IMG/VR virus record: IMGVR_UViG_3300001282_000067
Location: 1-24,063 of that record
DNA: 24,063 nucleotides
Source: a virus
Strand: one strand, 5' to 3'
Part shown: in pieces, positions 1,830-18,727 of the stretch
Layout of the letters: every line of letters starts with the position of its first letter
Position numbering within the stretch: position 1 is the stretch's first letter
Made by a program: the position numbers and the translations under genes
The notes under the pieces: model-generated
What the model was told of the DNA's origin: nothing
The model's database searches: none
What the model saw: the letters and a program-made list of their open reading frames with translations, nothing else

Positions 1830-2657
1830 TTACAGGTTGTTGACCTGTGTTACGGTACAAATGACTGATGGAATGGCGGGCCATACGCTTGTGGCGCTGG
1901 CCGCAAGAATTCTAACGCTTGTGTCATCCGTCGCCCACATCAATTCAACGTAGTTTGTTGGTTCTAGTTGAATGATGAAGTTCCACGCGGCGACGGTACG
2001 CGCTGCGCTTCCTTGAATGGCGACGGTAGTGGCTGTGTTGGCGACGTTGGTGCCGTTTTTACGCAACCAGATATAAATGTTGCCCACGCCGCCCGAGGTT
2101 TTGTCCAACTGTGCTGAAAACTGCACGTTGTAGACGCCTTGATAATCCACAACCAAACGGGACGACGGCGACCCGATAGATACGCCATTGCTGCTGTCGG
2201 TCGTGTTAAAAACCATGCCGTAGGCGGTGTCAATGGAAGCCGCCGTTTGCAGCGTTGTGTCGCTAAACGCACCAAAATGCAGAATCGGCACAGCGCGGCC
2301 AAAGCCTTGCAGTTCCTCCCACAACGTATTGCTAACGGCAAAAAACAATGCCGAGCAATCGGGGTTGATCGTGCCAAACCCTGCGTTGTTGATGCTGCTG
2401 CTGGCGTTATACGGATAAACGGAAATTGGGTTTGCCGTCGTATTCTTGACAATGATGGTTTCGCCCATCTCCGTCGGTGGCAACTTTACGCCTGTCCCAA
2501 CGGCTGCGCTTGTGACGTTGTTGTACACATACGTCAACGTGGTGGCATCGCCTGTCGACGTACCGGCTGCCGTGACCGATGCAATACCATCGCCGCAAAT
2601 ACTGACGGTGGACAATTGGTTGATGCCGCTGCCGAGTACGCGTGACGGGATTGCCAT
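1830..2657 (-). CDS. Virion structural protein with C1q/TNF-like jelly-roll C-terminus
   Basis: This 275-residue protein starts at 2657 (MAIPSRVLGSGINQLS); an in-frame ATG at 2687 is less likely because 2657 gives the TAATG overlap used elsewhere in this operon. The first half (about 20-125) is a beta-rich Ser/Thr/Asn domain with NTTANPISVYPYN. From about residue 127 the pattern FGAFSDTT, VVDYQGVYNVQFSAQL, IYIWLRKNGTNVANTAT and NYVELMWATDDTSVRILAA matches the C1q/TNF-like jelly roll found in phage decoration and receptor-binding proteins. It probably sits on the capsid or tail exterior. Its gene directly follows the DUF115 enzyme, so it is one possible target of that enzyme. Domain confidence is good; location is inferred. 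Confidence 0.72.
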   Translation of the reverse strand: MAIPSRVLGSGINQLSTVSICGDGIASVTAAGTSTGDATTLTYVYNNVTSAAVGTGVKLPPTEMGETIIVKNTTANPISVYPYNASSSINNAGFGTINPDCSALFFAVSNTLWEELQGFGRAVPILHFGAFSDTTLQTAASIDTAYGMVFNTTDSSNGVSIGSPSSRLVVDYQGVYNVQFSAQLDKTSGGVGNIYIWLRKNGTNVANTATTVAIQGSAARTVAAWNFIIQLEPTNYVELMWATDDTSVRILAASATSVWPAIPSVICTVTQVNNL

Positions 2658-3433
2658 TAGGCCGCCTTCGCCATGTTGCGGCGGCAACGCATGATTTCAG
2701 CAATCAGCCCCGGCCCGATGACCTCTATTTGCAGGTCGGGCATCACCTCAAACAATTTCTGGAATTCGTTGGCCTGCTGGGCCATCGCGGCGTTGCAGTT
2801 AAATTTCTTGCCGTCTGCGCCGCCCACCCATACGTCTACCGTTAGCCCCGGCAACTCGCCCGTAAACCGCTTACGTCCATCCGGGCTGTTGCACGAGTCG
2901 TAGCCGTACAGGAAAAACTTACGGAAGCCCATGATATAGCCGATGTTGATGGCACGCAGACCCGAGGTCGTGCCGCCACCGATGGCCAATTTACCCGGCC
3001 CCATGGCGTCCATTTCTGGGCCTTCAGCCCATGAGTGCCACACCATCACGCGCTTACCTTGAAGGTAATCAAACGTGGAGGGCGGGCAGCGCGAGGCAAC
3101 AAGGTACAGCGTGCGGTCGTTCTTGTGCTTGATACCGTTGGTGCGGTCGCGGGGGTCAAGGTTGACCCAAAAATCTGGTTCTACGCCGTTCTCTACCAAA
3201 AAGTCATGCGCACCCTTAATTGCACCGATCACATGACCGGCCTTCCGGTGCGCTTTGATGTCGTTAATGTAGTCGGGCATAGACCACCCGCTCGCCACCA
3301 GCACCATGGTTGCATCGTGCGTGATGGGAGCGAGGGTCAGTTCTGGTAGACCACGGGCAAGGGCAGAACGTATGTTAGAACATAGTTCTTCAGGCGTTCC
3401 CGCCGCTTGTACCGTGATCTCCAGAGGTTTCAT
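2657..3433 (-). CDS. DUF115 / Maf-like putative glycan transferase-type protein
   Basis: This 258-residue protein resembles the DUF115/MptE-like Rossmann domain of Maf proteins, which in bacteria are required for attaching nonulosonic acids to flagellin. Visible signatures are a nucleotide-binding-like loop VASGWS at 46-51 (families usually have GPS here), GVEPDFWVNLDP at 83-94, the glycine loop GGGTTSG at 152-158, and GFRKFFLYGYD at 169-179. It is shorter than bacterial Maf proteins, so it is essentially the catalytic-type core alone. It is translationally coupled on both sides by TAATG overlaps, with a Ser/Thr-rich decoration protein upstream and a jelly-roll virion protein downstream. That context suggests modification of virion proteins, which is inference. 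A role in host glycan remodelling is the alternative. Confidence 0.75.
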   Translation of the reverse strand: MKPLEITVQAAGTPEELCSNIRSALARGLPELTLAPITHDATMVLVASGWSMPDYINDIKAHRKAGHVIGAIKGAHDFLVENGVEPDFWVNLDPRDRTNGIKHKNDRTLYLVASRCPPSTFDYLQGKRVMVWHSWAEGPEMDAMGPGKLAIGGGTTSGLRAINIGYIMGFRKFFLYGYDSCNSPDGRKRFTGELPGLTVDVWVGGADGKKFNCNAAMAQQANEFQKLFEVMPDLQIEVIGPGLIAEIMRCRRNMAKAA

Positions 3434-3915
3434 TAGGCGCCCGAGTACCCAACAACGTGCGGGAAGCCCGCAACGCAGGTAATCGCCGTGGCACCCGACG
3501 CGGTTGCCGTGGCAACGATACCGGCCACAAGGCCGACACCGCCACCCGACACCGTGGCGTCATCCAGAACGCCAGCCGTCGCCGTCGTAAAGAGCGGGAC
3601 AGCCGGGTTGCAGGACGCCGCAAGGTTGACGCGCATCACGCCACCCGATTGCACCCAGCCAAAGGAGCCAGAGGCAATAGAGACTTGCGCGACCGCAAAC
3701 CGCTTGGAGTCGGCAGCGTTGGTCGTCGTCACCGGCACAGCCTTGTTGTCGGCACGGACAGACACGGCGGCGTACTGCGAGACGGTAGAGGCCGCCTGCA
3801 CGTAAATCGCCTGTCCACCGTCGTCAAGGTTGACGCAGGTGCCGAGGTTGAACTGCTGCGTGGTGTCGGCATAGCCAAGGGCAACGCCAATGACATTACT
3901 AGTTGAAACAGTCAT
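3433..3915 (-). CDS. Capsid decoration / head-stabilising protein
   Basis: A 160-residue, beta-rich protein made mostly of Ala, Val, Thr, Ser and Gly, beginning MTVSTSNVIGVALGYADTT. It follows the major capsid gene directly, the usual place of a decoration or cement protein. Composition and repeated short strands (VSQYAAVSVRADNKAVPVTT, GGVMRVNLAAS, GVGLVAGIVATATASG) fit an outer-capsid beta protein. An AAGGAG ribosome site eight bases upstream overlaps the stop codon of the capsid gene. The high Thr/Ser content gives many possible O-glycosylation sites, relevant because the next gene is DUF115/Maf-like. The role is inferred from position and composition. Confidence 0.65.
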   Translation of the reverse strand: MTVSTSNVIGVALGYADTTQQFNLGTCVNLDDGGQAIYVQAASTVSQYAAVSVRADNKAVPVTTTNAADSKRFAVAQVSIASGSFGWVQSGGVMRVNLAASCNPAVPLFTTATAGVLDDATVSGGGVGLVAGIVATATASGATAITCVAGFPHVVGYSGA

Positions 3916-3928
3916 TTTCGTTTACTCC

Positions 3929-4954
3929 TTAAGCAATCAACACGCCTTGGAACTGGCTGCCCGAGCAGGTGAGGTTACCGGCCCAGCCAATCAGTTTCAC
4001 AATGGCGTCTTGGTTGACGGCCTGACGCTCACCGCCAATCGGCACAAAGTTGCGATCTTTGTGCGGGCGGAACATCAGGTACTTGGTGTTGAGGAACCAC
4101 ATATGGTTTGCGTTGCCCGAACCGCTGTTGTACGTGGACGATCCGATACCACCGTCCAACACAACGTCGGAGGCCATACCAGCGCCATAATACTTCAACG
4201 AGGCAAAGCCCGCTCCGGCGAGGCCCGAACCACTCTCCGTAATACGCTGGATCGCTTGCAGCGATTGCAGGTAGAAGCGGTAGTAGTTGTTGTCGGCCAC
4301 GATGAGGTCAGGCTTGTCGGTTCCACGAACGAGTTGCACGGCAAGCGCATCCATGTAGCCTTGAATCGTCGTGCTGGACACAGCGCCCGCACCACCGCCA
4401 TCAGCGGCAGCCGAGAACTTCTTGCTCTGCCAGAACGACCACACAGCGCGGTTGATGCCGCCGTAGGTGCCAACAGTCGGGTCATCCGGCACAGCCGCAG
4501 CAAGGCCCGTGAGGTTCTTGCCGGCGTTTCCGGTGCCGTCGCCGTACAGGTCGCCCGAGATGCGGTTAGCAAGTTGGGCTTCCGCGACTTCCATGCGACC
4601 GTCAAGAAGGTCAATGATGGCCTCCTTGCCCGAGTTCTGGATCATCTCCAGACCCGAAATGGTCACAGCCGAGGCGTACTGCGTGATGCTGAACTGCGCC
4701 GCAGAAATCGGCGAGTTCTGGCCCACGTTCAGCACTTCATAGCCGCTGTACGAGTTGGTGTTGTTCGTGGTCGGATCGGTGTACATGATTTCTTGCAAAA
4801 TCACGTTACCGCCCGAGAACGTCTTGACGTTCCCACGCTCCTTCAGACGACGAAGCAACGCGTTGTTGTTCGTCACGTTATCAGCAAGTTCACCGCTACG
4901 GCTCTGAATCGTGGTAGCAATGATGTCGCTGATACTAGAGTTGGCAAATGCCAT
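3929..4954 (-). CDS. Major capsid protein
   Basis: This 341-residue protein is the probable HK97-fold major capsid subunit. The N-terminal arm (MAFANSSISDIIATTIQSR...LADNVTNNNALLRRLKERG) is helical, followed by strands such as GGNVILQEIMY and SAAQFSITQYASAVTISGLEM. A central stretch DLYGDGTGNAGKNLTGLAAAVPDDP and PDLIVADNNYYRFYLQSLQAIQRI is characteristic of phage capsid proteins with the spine helix and A-domain. The C-terminus has MWFLNTKYLMFRPHKDRNFVPIG. It lies between scaffold and decoration genes. A strong AGGAG site sits seven bases before the ATG, fitting high expression. The call rests on sequence pattern plus gene order. Confidence 0.85.
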   Translation of the reverse strand: MAFANSSISDIIATTIQSRSGELADNVTNNNALLRRLKERGNVKTFSGGNVILQEIMYTDPTTNNTNSYSGYEVLNVGQNSPISAAQFSITQYASAVTISGLEMIQNSGKEAIIDLLDGRMEVAEAQLANRISGDLYGDGTGNAGKNLTGLAAAVPDDPTVGTYGGINRAVWSFWQSKKFSAAADGGGAGAVSSTTIQGYMDALAVQLVRGTDKPDLIVADNNYYRFYLQSLQAIQRITESGSGLAGAGFASLKYYGAGMASDVVLDGGIGSSTYNSGSGNANHMWFLNTKYLMFRPHKDRNFVPIGGERQAVNQDAIVKLIGWAGNLTCSGSQFQGVLIA

Positions 4955-12573: not shown

Positions 12574-13236
12574 ATGTCTACGTTCGTGTTTTTCCATGTG
12601 GGCGATGATCTGGAATGGCCGACTCGGATGGTCGCTTCCCTCCGCGCCTTTAACCCCGGTGCTGAAATCATCCAAGTGACGGATCGTGTGACCGCGACTG
12701 TAGAGGGTGTCACATGGGCGTACCCGACCGAGGGCGACCGGGAGTTCCTGATGCACTGGCGTCTTGCCGCCTTTGCGCGATTAGGGCTAGACGAACCTGC
12801 CCTATACCTTGACACCGATATGGTTGTGAAAGCCCCCATAAAGCCGTCCACGCTCGTTCTGGATGAGGTTTGCGTGCCATGTCGGCGGTCATTCAACCGG
12901 GATGCGCTATTCAACCCTCGGCAGCGGGGTTTGGACTTTTCCGAGTACACGGGTAAGACGCTGGATGAAGTGTACCCGTTTGTCGGTTGTGCAACCGTGA
13001 CCCGTGATGCAGGGCCGTGGGAGGATATGGCCGAGATGTTTGAGGCGTTACCCGAGAAGTTCTGGCGTTGGTACGGCGATCAAGAGGTTTTGCGAGAGTA
13101 TTGCCGGCAGACCGAGGTAACGCTGCCCGAGTATCACTTTGCCTGCCTGCCAGAGTACTTACCCCAGCATCCCCACCCGGCCATCGTTCATTACAAGGGT
13201 GCGCGAAAGGCGCTTATCGGTACTGCTCCGGTTTGA
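12574..13236 (+). CDS. Putative glycosyltransferase (GT-A fold, DxD)
   Basis: A 220-residue protein on the opposite strand to both neighbours. It starts with the strand STFVFFHVGDDLEWPTRMVASL typical of nucleotide-sugar-binding GT-A enzymes, and has the metal-binding DxD motif within YLDTDMVVK (Asp80-Thr-Asp82) after a helix HWRLAAFARLG. The motif GDQEVLREYC near 165 and the C-terminal HYKG at 206-209 are also seen in GT8-like enzymes, where the last His contacts the metal. It would transfer a sugar from a nucleotide sugar; donor and acceptor are unknown. As a single gene between two leftward operons it looks like an independently acquired cargo gene. It ends 23 bases inside the facing nuclease gene. 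Confidence 0.8.
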   Translation: MSTFVFFHVGDDLEWPTRMVASLRAFNPGAEIIQVTDRVTATVEGVTWAYPTEGDREFLMHWRLAAFARLGLDEPALYLDTDMVVKAPIKPSTLVLDEVCVPCRRSFNRDALFNPRQRGLDFSEYTGKTLDEVYPFVGCATVTRDAGPWEDMAEMFEALPEKFWRWYGDQEVLREYCRQTEVTLPEYHFACLPEYLPQHPHPAIVHYKGARKALIGTAPV

Positions 13237-13537
13237 TAGAGAGCAAATACCGCTCGTAAAGTTCCCGCACCGCGTCCTGTGCGTCACGGGCGACGTAATA
13301 CTCACCGCGAGGCGCAAAGATGTTACGGAACCGCTCTTGGCCTTCCCGTAACTTGCCCTTCGGCATCTTGATCTCTACCCAGCACACCCATTCTACGCCG
13401 TCGGGTAGCGCCCGAGTGACGAGTTTATCGGGTATGCCTTCGCCTGCCTTGCCGTAGTCGTAGACGGTAAACCCTTGCGCACGCAGTGCCTGTGTGATGA
13501 CCGCATCGTTCCCGTCTCGGCGTGCTGCGTGTCTCAT
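13214..13537 (-). CDS. VRR-NUC-like PD-(D/E)XK nuclease
   Basis: A 107-residue protein with the layout of phage VRR-NUC domains: an N-terminal helix (RRDGNDAVITQALRAQGFTVYDYG), GEGIPDKLV with Asp37, then WVEIKMPKGKLREGQERF with the Glu55-x-Lys57 pair, and a C-terminal helix. These residues would bind metal and cut DNA, probably branched or structured substrates as known for this family. It is the last gene of the leftward regulator operon; ATGA joins it to the methyltransferase gene. Its 3' end overlaps the oppositely directed glycosyltransferase by 23 bases. Confidence 0.8.
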   Translation of the reverse strand: MRHAARRDGNDAVITQALRAQGFTVYDYGKAGEGIPDKLVTRALPDGVEWVCWVEIKMPKGKLREGQERFRNIFAPRGEYYVARDAQDAVRELYERYLLSIKPEQYR

Positions 13538-14271
13538 GCCTTAATCAATAATCCTTGGCCGGTCGGCATTTCCAAGATTTGCTCTTTGCCTTCTAGGAAC
13601 TTTTGGTGCGTCACCGCTGACTCACGATACCGAGCAAAGCCGTAGTCGTCAAAGATGACTATGCCACCGGGTGATAGCCTTTGGTACACCAACGGGAACA
13701 CAAACCTTTCGGCCTCTGCGTCGTTAAGGTCAATCTGGCAAAAGGCAATCTGATCGGGGAGCGTGTGCGCAGTAGCGTGTATATCACCGAGATACACTTT
13801 TGCGTTCCACGGCGATAAACGCTCGGTCACTTGCTCGCAAAGGTCGGGGCCATGCTCTGATTTCTTGCTCTCCTCGGGAGGTTCGGCGAAATAGTCGTAC
13901 GCATACACCTCTCGTTGCTCACGCTGATACCGCAACACGACTTCCAGCGCACGACCGTCGTACGTCCCAATGTCTACGATGGCACCGTCAACGTGTAATG
14001 CCTGCTCACACGCCCAACATAGGGTGTAAAGCCGCCAGAGCCGTGCGCGTAGCACAAAGTTGAGGCTCCCACACGCTTCGTTAAACCTCGGGTCATGCGT
14101 AAAAAATAGGTTCCGAAACCACACAAAGAGGTCATCGTGGAAGGTGCAATGTCCTCCGACGTTTGCGCCGAGTAACCCCATAAGGGTCTGCAAGGTGTCG
14201 TGTATTTCCCTTCTTTTTTCGGGACTGAACTTTTGGTAATCCTTGTGAAACAGGGCTGCTGACGGGTTCAT
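13534..14271 (-). CDS. SAM-dependent methyltransferase (TylF/macrocin O-methyltransferase-like)
   Basis: A 245-residue protein with a class I methyltransferase core. Motif I is IVDIGTYDG at 98-106, followed by an acidic strand end (YAYDYF), FCQIDLNDAE around 181, and PGGIVIFDDYG at 201-211. The paired acidic residues in the last two motifs are typical of metal-dependent sugar O-methyltransferases of the TylF class. About 90 residues of helical N-terminus precede the core. The likely reaction is methylation of a sugar hydroxyl, which fits the nearby glycosyltransferase at 12574; small-molecule or protein targets remain possible. It overlaps neighbours by ATGA at both ends. Confidence 0.78.
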   Translation of the reverse strand: MNPSAALFHKDYQKFSPEKRREIHDTLQTLMGLLGANVGGHCTFHDDLFVWFRNLFFTHDPRFNEACGSLNFVLRARLWRLYTLCWACEQALHVDGAIVDIGTYDGRALEVVLRYQREQREVYAYDYFAEPPEESKKSEHGPDLCEQVTERLSPWNAKVYLGDIHATAHTLPDQIAFCQIDLNDAEAERFVFPLVYQRLSPGGIVIFDDYGFARYRESAVTHQKFLEGKEQILEMPTGQGLLIKA

Positions 14272-17614: not shown

Positions 17615-18068
17615 CTTTGAGGCAAGGTTTCGGGCGAGTCGCCCTGCGGAGATCGTAGTGGCGACTTACCTCTTGAACCTTGGGCATACGGTGACGCTTC
17701 CACAGCGTCGGCTGCGTGCCAATTTTGCCGACCGCAAAGAATATGCAGATAAGGGCGATATTTATGCGAGTAACAAGCGCATAGAGGTCAAGCATCTAAA
17801 GCGTGATTTTGAGTTTGGCGAGTGGCCGTTTGAGACGGCAACCATCTGCGCTAAGGCATCGTTTGACAACGCGCACCCTCGGCCTGATTGGTACTTTCTG
17901 GTCAATCACAGCATGACGGTGGCGGCGTTGGTGGACGTTAATACGACGTTTGCCGATTGGATTGTGCGCAAACAATTAGACCCGGCTCGTGGTTACGATT
18001 ACGACGTTTACGCCGTGACGCCTGAGTATCTGGCATGGCGTTACATAGACTTTGAGGAAAAACTGTGA
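17592..18068 (+). CDS. Putative PD-(D/E)XK-fold nuclease
   Basis: A 158-residue protein overlapping the SSB-like gene by 23 bases. A nuclease-like core is visible: helix with Glu20 (PAEIVVATYLLNLGH), then KGDIYASNKRIEVKHLKRDF, in which Asp56, Glu65 and Lys67 fit the D...ExK metal site. The remainder has DWYFLVNHSMTVAALVDV, a strand-strand pattern common in restriction-type folds. Such proteins may be resolvase, repair or restriction-type nucleases. The family is not one I can name; its location next to recombination genes argues for DNA processing. Confidence 0.62.
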   Translation: MTLTPHSDFEARFRASRPAEIVVATYLLNLGHTVTLPQRRLRANFADRKEYADKGDIYASNKRIEVKHLKRDFEFGEWPFETATICAKASFDNAHPRPDWYFLVNHSMTVAALVDVNTTFADWIVRKQLDPARGYDYDVYAVTPEYLAWRYIDFEEKL

Positions 18069-18727
18069 AGGTATTTATCGGTTGGGACAGCCGCGAGGAC
18101 ATTGCGTATCAAGTTTGCCGCAAGAGCCTGCTCAAGCACGCCTCTATCCCGCTAGACATACAACCCATCAAACAGTCAGAACTTCGGGAGCGTGGCCTTT
18201 ACTGGCGGGAGACTGATCCGTTGTCGTCTACGGAGTTTTCGTTTACCCGCTTCTTGACCCCATACCTCGCCGGGTACGACGGCTGGGCTGTGTTTATGGA
18301 CTGCGATTTTCTTTTGCGGGGGGATATTGCGGGACTGATGGACTACGCCGACGGGGCAAAAGCGTGCTTTGTGGTACAGCACGATTACAGGCCGTTTGAG
18401 AAGGTCAAGATGGACAACAAGGCGCAACATCAGTATCCACGAAAAAACTGGTCATCGTTCATGTTTATGAACTGTTCGCACCCCGAGGTCAAGGCGTTGA
18501 CACCCGATGTCGTGAACAGAGAAAGTGGAATGTTCCTGCACCGTTTCCAATGGCTAAAAGACGAGTCCATTGGCTCTCTACCGATAGCGTGGAACTATCT
18601 GGAAGGTTGGTACACGCGCGACCATTGCCCGAATCCCATCGCCGTACATTTCACCCGTGGCGGCCCGTGGTTTAAGGATTGGGTAGACGTTGAGTACGGC
18701 AAGGAATGGCTAGAGGCTAGTCGGTGA
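18065..18727 (+). CDS. Putative glycosyltransferase (GT8-like)
   Basis: A 220-residue GT-A-type enzyme. It begins VFIGWDSREDIAYQVCRKSLLKH, the usual donor-binding start of this phage group, followed by FSFTRFLTPYL and the metal-binding DCD in VFMDCDFLLRG (79-81). The C-terminal part has SIGSLPIAWNYLEGWY and VHFTRGGPWFKDW, with His in the position expected to help bind metal. Start is GTG within GTGA overlap of the previous stop. It is unexpected inside a DNA recombination operon and might glycosylate virion, host surface or, less likely, DNA. It is distinct from the glycosyltransferase at 12574; they share only the fold-level features. Confidence 0.82.
   Translation: MKVFIGWDSREDIAYQVCRKSLLKHASIPLDIQPIKQSELRERGLYWRETDPLSSTEFSFTRFLTPYLAGYDGWAVFMDCDFLLRGDIAGLMDYADGAKACFVVQHDYRPFEKVKMDNKAQHQYPRKNWSSFMFMNCSHPEVKALTPDVVNRESGMFLHRFQWLKDESIGSLPIAWNYLEGWYTRDHCPNPIAVHFTRGGPWFKDWVDVEYGKEWLEASR

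Follow-up and report, generated by a model that had tools for sequence, protein, structure and literature searches.

In an uncultured Mx8-like phage, the capsid decoration gene of the head operon is directly followed by, and overlaps, a gene for a protein of the PF01973 (MptE-like/Maf, formerly DUF115) family, and the linkage between the two genes is conserved and old. The pair may constitute a cassette that modifies the decoration protein, with the enzyme probably a glycosyltransferase; from the comparative analyses described here we regard the case for this reading as evenly poised. As it stands, the find is a conserved, testable hypothesis.

The genes concerned lie on the minus strand of the window, by which we mean the whole 24,063-nt stretch of viral DNA that was analyzed. 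The gene for the major capsid protein (MCP; 3929..4954, minus strand; phrog_9953, E=7.9e-106), whose product is 53.5% identical to the MCP of Myxococcus phage Mx8, has genes for a scaffold-like protein and a portal further upstream. Next come the gene for the 160-aa decoration protein, the proposed acceptor (3433..3915, minus strand; phrog_29386 virion structural protein, E=1.7e-5), and the gene for the 258-aa PF01973 protein (2657..3433, minus strand). The gene that follows (1830..2657, minus strand) encodes a 275-aa virion protein in which an N-terminal domain of some 118 aa is joined to a C-terminal part that is exchangeable and C1q-like (jelly-roll). The C-terminal half resembles phage proteins annotated as having C1q- or cerebellin-like folds, in agreement with the jelly-roll virion protein that a first-pass annotation of this DNA had placed there. 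The same annotation reported TAATG at both ends of the PF01973 gene, and the plus strand indeed reads catta at 3431-3435 (decoration to PF01973 gene) and at 2655-2659 (PF01973 to jelly-roll gene), which are TAATG stop/start overlaps on the coding (minus) strand. Its description of the decoration protein as Thr/Ser-rich stands as a number (19.4% Ser plus Thr) but not as a distinctive trait: Ser plus Thr make up 22% of the jelly-roll protein, 20% of the tail protein, and 22% of the short decoration protein found in relatives that lack the PF01973 enzyme. Ser/Thr richness was rejected as evidence of O-glycosylation because the short decoration protein of these enzyme-free relatives is equally rich.

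The neighboring genes vary among the relatives. The C-terminal part of the jelly-roll protein is unmatched in loci L006, L009, L013, L065, and L076, while the N-terminal 118 aa or so are conserved; in several relatives this N-terminal domain also has a tandem gene to itself (L253:7551-7907). In L253, L004, L079, L188, L244, and L245 the capsid and decoration genes are separated by about 500 additional nt, and in the first of these loci the added DNA holds an ORF with the look of an HNH endonuclease (L253:5802-6275). The MCP gene, uninterrupted in the window, is split in several relatives near codon 317 (NQDA/IVK), where it is interrupted by a conserved insertion of some 220-240 nt that contains no ORF (L226:6961-7194, L016:6098-6331, and also L009, L080, L240, L359, and L370). 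Some strings in the insertion recall a small group I intron, and an Rfam search of it returned no match.

Membership of the 258-aa protein in PF01973 is supported by a Pfam match of 56.8 bits (E=3.2e-15; curated cut-off 34.6), and the motifs on which the DUF115-type assignment was originally based are present (GVEPDFWVNLDP, GGGTTSG, and GFRKFFLYGYD). The protein has no PHROG match and no NCBIfam match, and at its length the full three-domain architecture of Maf/PseD is absent. A profile made from an alignment of 36 diverse relatives matches Maf of Magnetospirillum magneticum (5MU5) with E=3.6e-13 and 52.5 bits, and archaeal MptE (8sd5) with E=0.0018 and 20.7 bits. The AlphaFold2 model made with the diverse alignment (pLDDT 92, pTM 0.90), which superseded an earlier one from a shallow alignment (pLDDT 67), also has Maf 5MU5 as its top PDB match (E=3.3e-10, TM 0.67), followed in order by MptE (8sd5, TM 0.57), SteA, and the human CMP-sialyltransferases ST8SiaIII and ST6GalNAc2 (probability 0.85-0.99). 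Structure and profile thus agree on a Maf-like protein rather than another Rossmann enzyme. The central PF01973 domain of Maf has itself been likened to the sialyltransferase Cst-II (PMC11339370). With Maf the best match by both profile and structure, and with this sialyltransferase likeness, the nearest described relative belongs to the sugar-transferring branch of the family and not to the pyrophosphokinase branch.

Relatives of the window protein are encoded in at least 301 stretches of IMG/VR, and the carriers are uncultured, mostly freshwater phages. A tblastn search of 50,697 phage records with the window protein and four sister-lineage proteins found no cultured-phage homologue, and a protein-profile scan of genome contigs found no relatives. 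An MCP scan of genome contigs matched only contigs inside MAG bins. Phage contigs of the clade (L325, L327, L328, and L329) are in bins labeled Acidithiobacillales, Lysobacterales, Chloroflexota, and Paludibacter, a mixture that more likely reflects mis-binning than host range.

The linkage to decoration genes has been studied in two sets of loci. Among all loci retrieved by the window protein and long enough to display the neighbors, the gene order is MCP, decoration, PF01973, jelly-roll, 180-aa protein, and tail protein. The PF01973 gene is directly behind the decoration gene wherever both are in view, and this is so in all three lineages of PF01973 phage proteins (A, B, and C). Lineages B and C have it in the same slot, in head modules whose MCPs are down to about 33-42% identical to the reference MCPs. 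The second set was retrieved by MCP, to avoid selection on the PF01973 gene itself. Here the PF01973 gene is present in 49 of the 49 complete slots with decoration A (48/48) or decoration B (1/1), and in none of the six with an unrelated short decoration protein (98-102 aa). By MCP and tail-protein trees the six non-carriers make up two groups nested within the carrier clade, and both trees give full bootstrap support to the grouping of one of them with L250. The DNA of L250 and L254 is 90% identical through the MCP stop (L250:4291) and 84% identical starting 6 nt inside the jelly-roll gene (L250:5549). Between these points one has decoration A and PF01973 (about 1.26 kb) and the other the short decoration gene and a gene for a 118-aa protein (about 0.74 kb), and a search for similarity between the exchanged segments found none. 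The segment with the decoration and PF01973 genes has been replaced as a block. The exchange events resolved are two, adjacent genes co-exchange for physical reasons too, and on the short-decoration side the exchanged block includes the 118-aa gene. The linkage to decoration genes anticipated in the first-pass annotation is borne out by conserved synteny as well as by block exchange.

Within lineage A, distances among PF01973 proteins correlate with those among decoration proteins (rho 0.77), the other pairs with either protein giving 0.63 or less. Of the 207 lineage-A loci measured, 112 have a stop/start overlap of exactly 1 nt, as do 12 of 31 lineage-C loci, both counts containing overlapping copies of some contigs; the remaining loci mostly have a gap of 0-4 nt. 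The gap in lineage B is 36-48 nt. More distant Mx8-like phages have decoration proteins of the same families without PF01973 (16 slots), indicating that the enzyme is something extra in this clade, on which the decoration fold does not depend. Of 80 Mx8-like loci, 0 have a PF01973 gene at a distance of up to 7 kb from the MCP gene.

The three lineages are about 25-34% identical to one another and differ at the presumed donor pocket. In lineage A, that of the window, the loop reads VASGWSM in 102 of the 109 distinct sequences collected; the exceptions among the 109 are L250 (GSGPSL) and the first members of lineages B and C. In lineage B (L325, L328, L335-L357, and others) the loop is GGG-x-S, most often GGGPS, and is accompanied by the motif HAY; the corresponding sequences of lineage C (L327, L358-L391) are GG[AG]PS and HVY. 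In most lineage-B members the PF01973 domain is immediately followed by a SAM-methyltransferase domain, with Pfam support for the fusion in L258, L328, and L329 and position by tblastn in the other loci. In the profile alignment, the position of the His of HAY and HVY is also a His in 5MU5 (RHHSKQ) but a Lys in lineage A (K188; codon 2870..2872, minus strand). The GWS in place of the usual GPS, as first noted (residues 49-51; W50 codon 3284..3286, minus strand), comes with a second change, of His to Lys, in the window's lineage. Since lineages B and C have both GPS and the His, and 5MU5 has the His, W50 and K188 are most simply taken as derived states of lineage A, in which the presumed donor pocket would have been altered.

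Such changes could mean that the lineage A protein descends from an enzyme but is now a non-enzymatic partner of the decoration protein in structure or assembly, either a chaperone or a minor virion component. This is a serious rival, albeit an unlikely one. In its favor, GPS and the Maf-like His are gone from a gene under strong purifying selection, and expression of the protein is coupled with that of a structural protein. The dN/dS of the PF01973 gene in close pairs is 0.05-0.09 (about 0.08), similar to that of the MCP gene, and at these values GWS and K188 do not look like decay. Against this rival, most other pocket positions are invariant between lineage A and the enzymatic lineages, the residues common to 36/36 aligned sequences including S51, D93, G153, G158, and D179, with H133 almost invariant. 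PF01973 is also, to our knowledge, an enzyme fold in every characterised member.

The reading that we prefer is a two-gene cassette of the head operon, in which the decoration protein would be made together with a translationally coupled, stand-alone enzyme of the Maf/sialyltransferase fold. The enzyme would modify the decoration protein with which it is coupled and exchanged, most likely through transfer of a sugar from a host-supplied nucleotide-sugar donor. With coupled translation, enzyme and acceptor would become available at the same time in the late phase, either ahead of head assembly or while it proceeds. We infer catalytic activity, glycosyl transfer as the reaction, and the decoration protein as the acceptor. 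Glycosyl transfer with tailoring is favored by the fold family and by the methyltransferase domain of lineage B, and the MCP and jelly-roll proteins are weaker acceptor candidates because both persist in relatives without the enzyme. A wider and more tentative proposal, somewhat improbable in our estimate, is that uncultured phages of a widespread clade coat their capsids by means of a dedicated Maf-derived transferase, inherited and exchanged as a unit with its acceptor decoration protein, and that in the window's lineage (GWS, Lys) the catalytic site was rebuilt to suit another donor or chemistry.

Nonulosonic acid is one possibility among donors, suggested by analogy with Maf. The narrow form of the cassette reading, put forward in the first-pass annotation, in which the enzyme is specifically a transferase of nonulosonic acids (of the pseudaminic, legionaminic, or sialic type) to Ser/Thr of the decoration protein, appears rather doubtful to us. 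It has in its favor that Maf is the closest solved relative, with CMP-sialyltransferases next, and that Maf enzymes put nonulosonic acids on flagellin Ser/Thr (PMC11339370). Lineages B and C also match NCBIfam PseD, although with 24-28 bits, far under its cut-off of 670. GWS and K188 in the window's lineage and the undistinguished Ser/Thr content of the decoration protein argue against it, as does the result that neither NeuB nor the CMP-sugar synthetase family CTP_transf_3 was found in the window and 15 related records (0 of 16). With no phage-borne donor synthesis found in these 16 records, the donor would have to come from the host.

Elsewhere the window encodes two 220-aa proteins with DTD/DCD motifs and the look of small GT-A glycosyltransferases (12574-13236 and 18065-18727, both plus strand), for which Pfam support is absent or sub-threshold and which have relatives in 12/15 and 10/15 of the related records. 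A gene for a TylF/Methyltransf_24-type methyltransferase (13534-14271, minus strand) is present in only 3/15. These genes were considered as parts of the cassette and rejected, being variable among genomes that all keep PF01973. They do bear on another explanation, that the enzyme acts on a non-virion substrate such as host surface glycans late in infection, its place in the head operon being a matter of expression timing. The fold is compatible with that of glycan-acting sialyltransferases, and the GT-A-like and methyltransferase genes elsewhere in the window would fit such a role; but the variability just described, and the fact that the PF01973 gene follows the identity of the decoration gene and not the phage backbone, make this decidedly unlikely. 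Very improbable is a metabolic role as a pterin or nucleotide pyrophosphokinase of the MptE type: archaeal MptE (6-hydroxymethyl-7,8-dihydropterin pyrophosphokinase) gives the Pfam family its name, shares the core fold, and is the second-best structure match, but the profile clearly favors Maf, MptE has another motif after the third strand, with SDLDG in 8sd5 as against VNLDP in the window protein, its context is unrelated, and one would not expect a folate enzyme to have a fixed place in a head operon.

If the cassette reading holds, an enzyme and its acceptor are swapped as one unit in hundreds of environmental phage contigs, which would make coat chemistry a modular, selectable trait. Few phages have documented coat glycosylation, which in mycobacteriophages protects the virions against antibody binding (PMC12363180). 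The system would also be compact, with two genes (258 and 160 aa), and directly testable by co-expression.

Among known systems, the closest in sequence and fold are the Maf/PseD flagellin glycosyltransferases, which have PF01973 as their central domain and are likewise paired with an abundant surface protein. Maf works in the cytoplasm on the flagellin protein itself (PMC4065374). The differences are in size (about 600 aa for Maf), in the Maf N- and C-terminal domains that the window protein lacks, in GWS and Lys as against the Maf-type GPS and His, and in location, the window gene being in a phage head operon and not beside flagellin or nonulosonate genes. The closest predicted viral structures are MptE-like proteins of uncultured Caudovirales in BFVD (A0A6J5L5C1, A0A6J7XC21, and A0A6J7X5Q0), 26-37% identical to the window protein over the domain; they are longer (540-714 aa), and one is named a methyltransferase protein. 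A search of the open-access literature found no description of DUF115, MptE-like, or Maf proteins in phage heads. In function the nearest precedent is mycobacteriophage virion glycosylation. As reported in PMC12363180 from Freeman et al. (2023), glycosylation of capsid and tail-tube proteins has been demonstrated experimentally, and Che8 gp110 and Corndog gp38 are transferases proposed to modify the phages' own virion proteins. The window resembles these phages in having a transferase-like gene linked to virion genes, and differs in that glycosylation was experimentally shown there and is deduced here from genes. The pairing of a PF01973 enzyme with a decoration protein also sets the window apart from the mycobacteriophage enzymes as they are described. 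Phage virion glycosylation and the action of Maf on flagellin are thus already known; what would be new, if the function holds, is a PF01973/Maf-type gene in a phage head operon.
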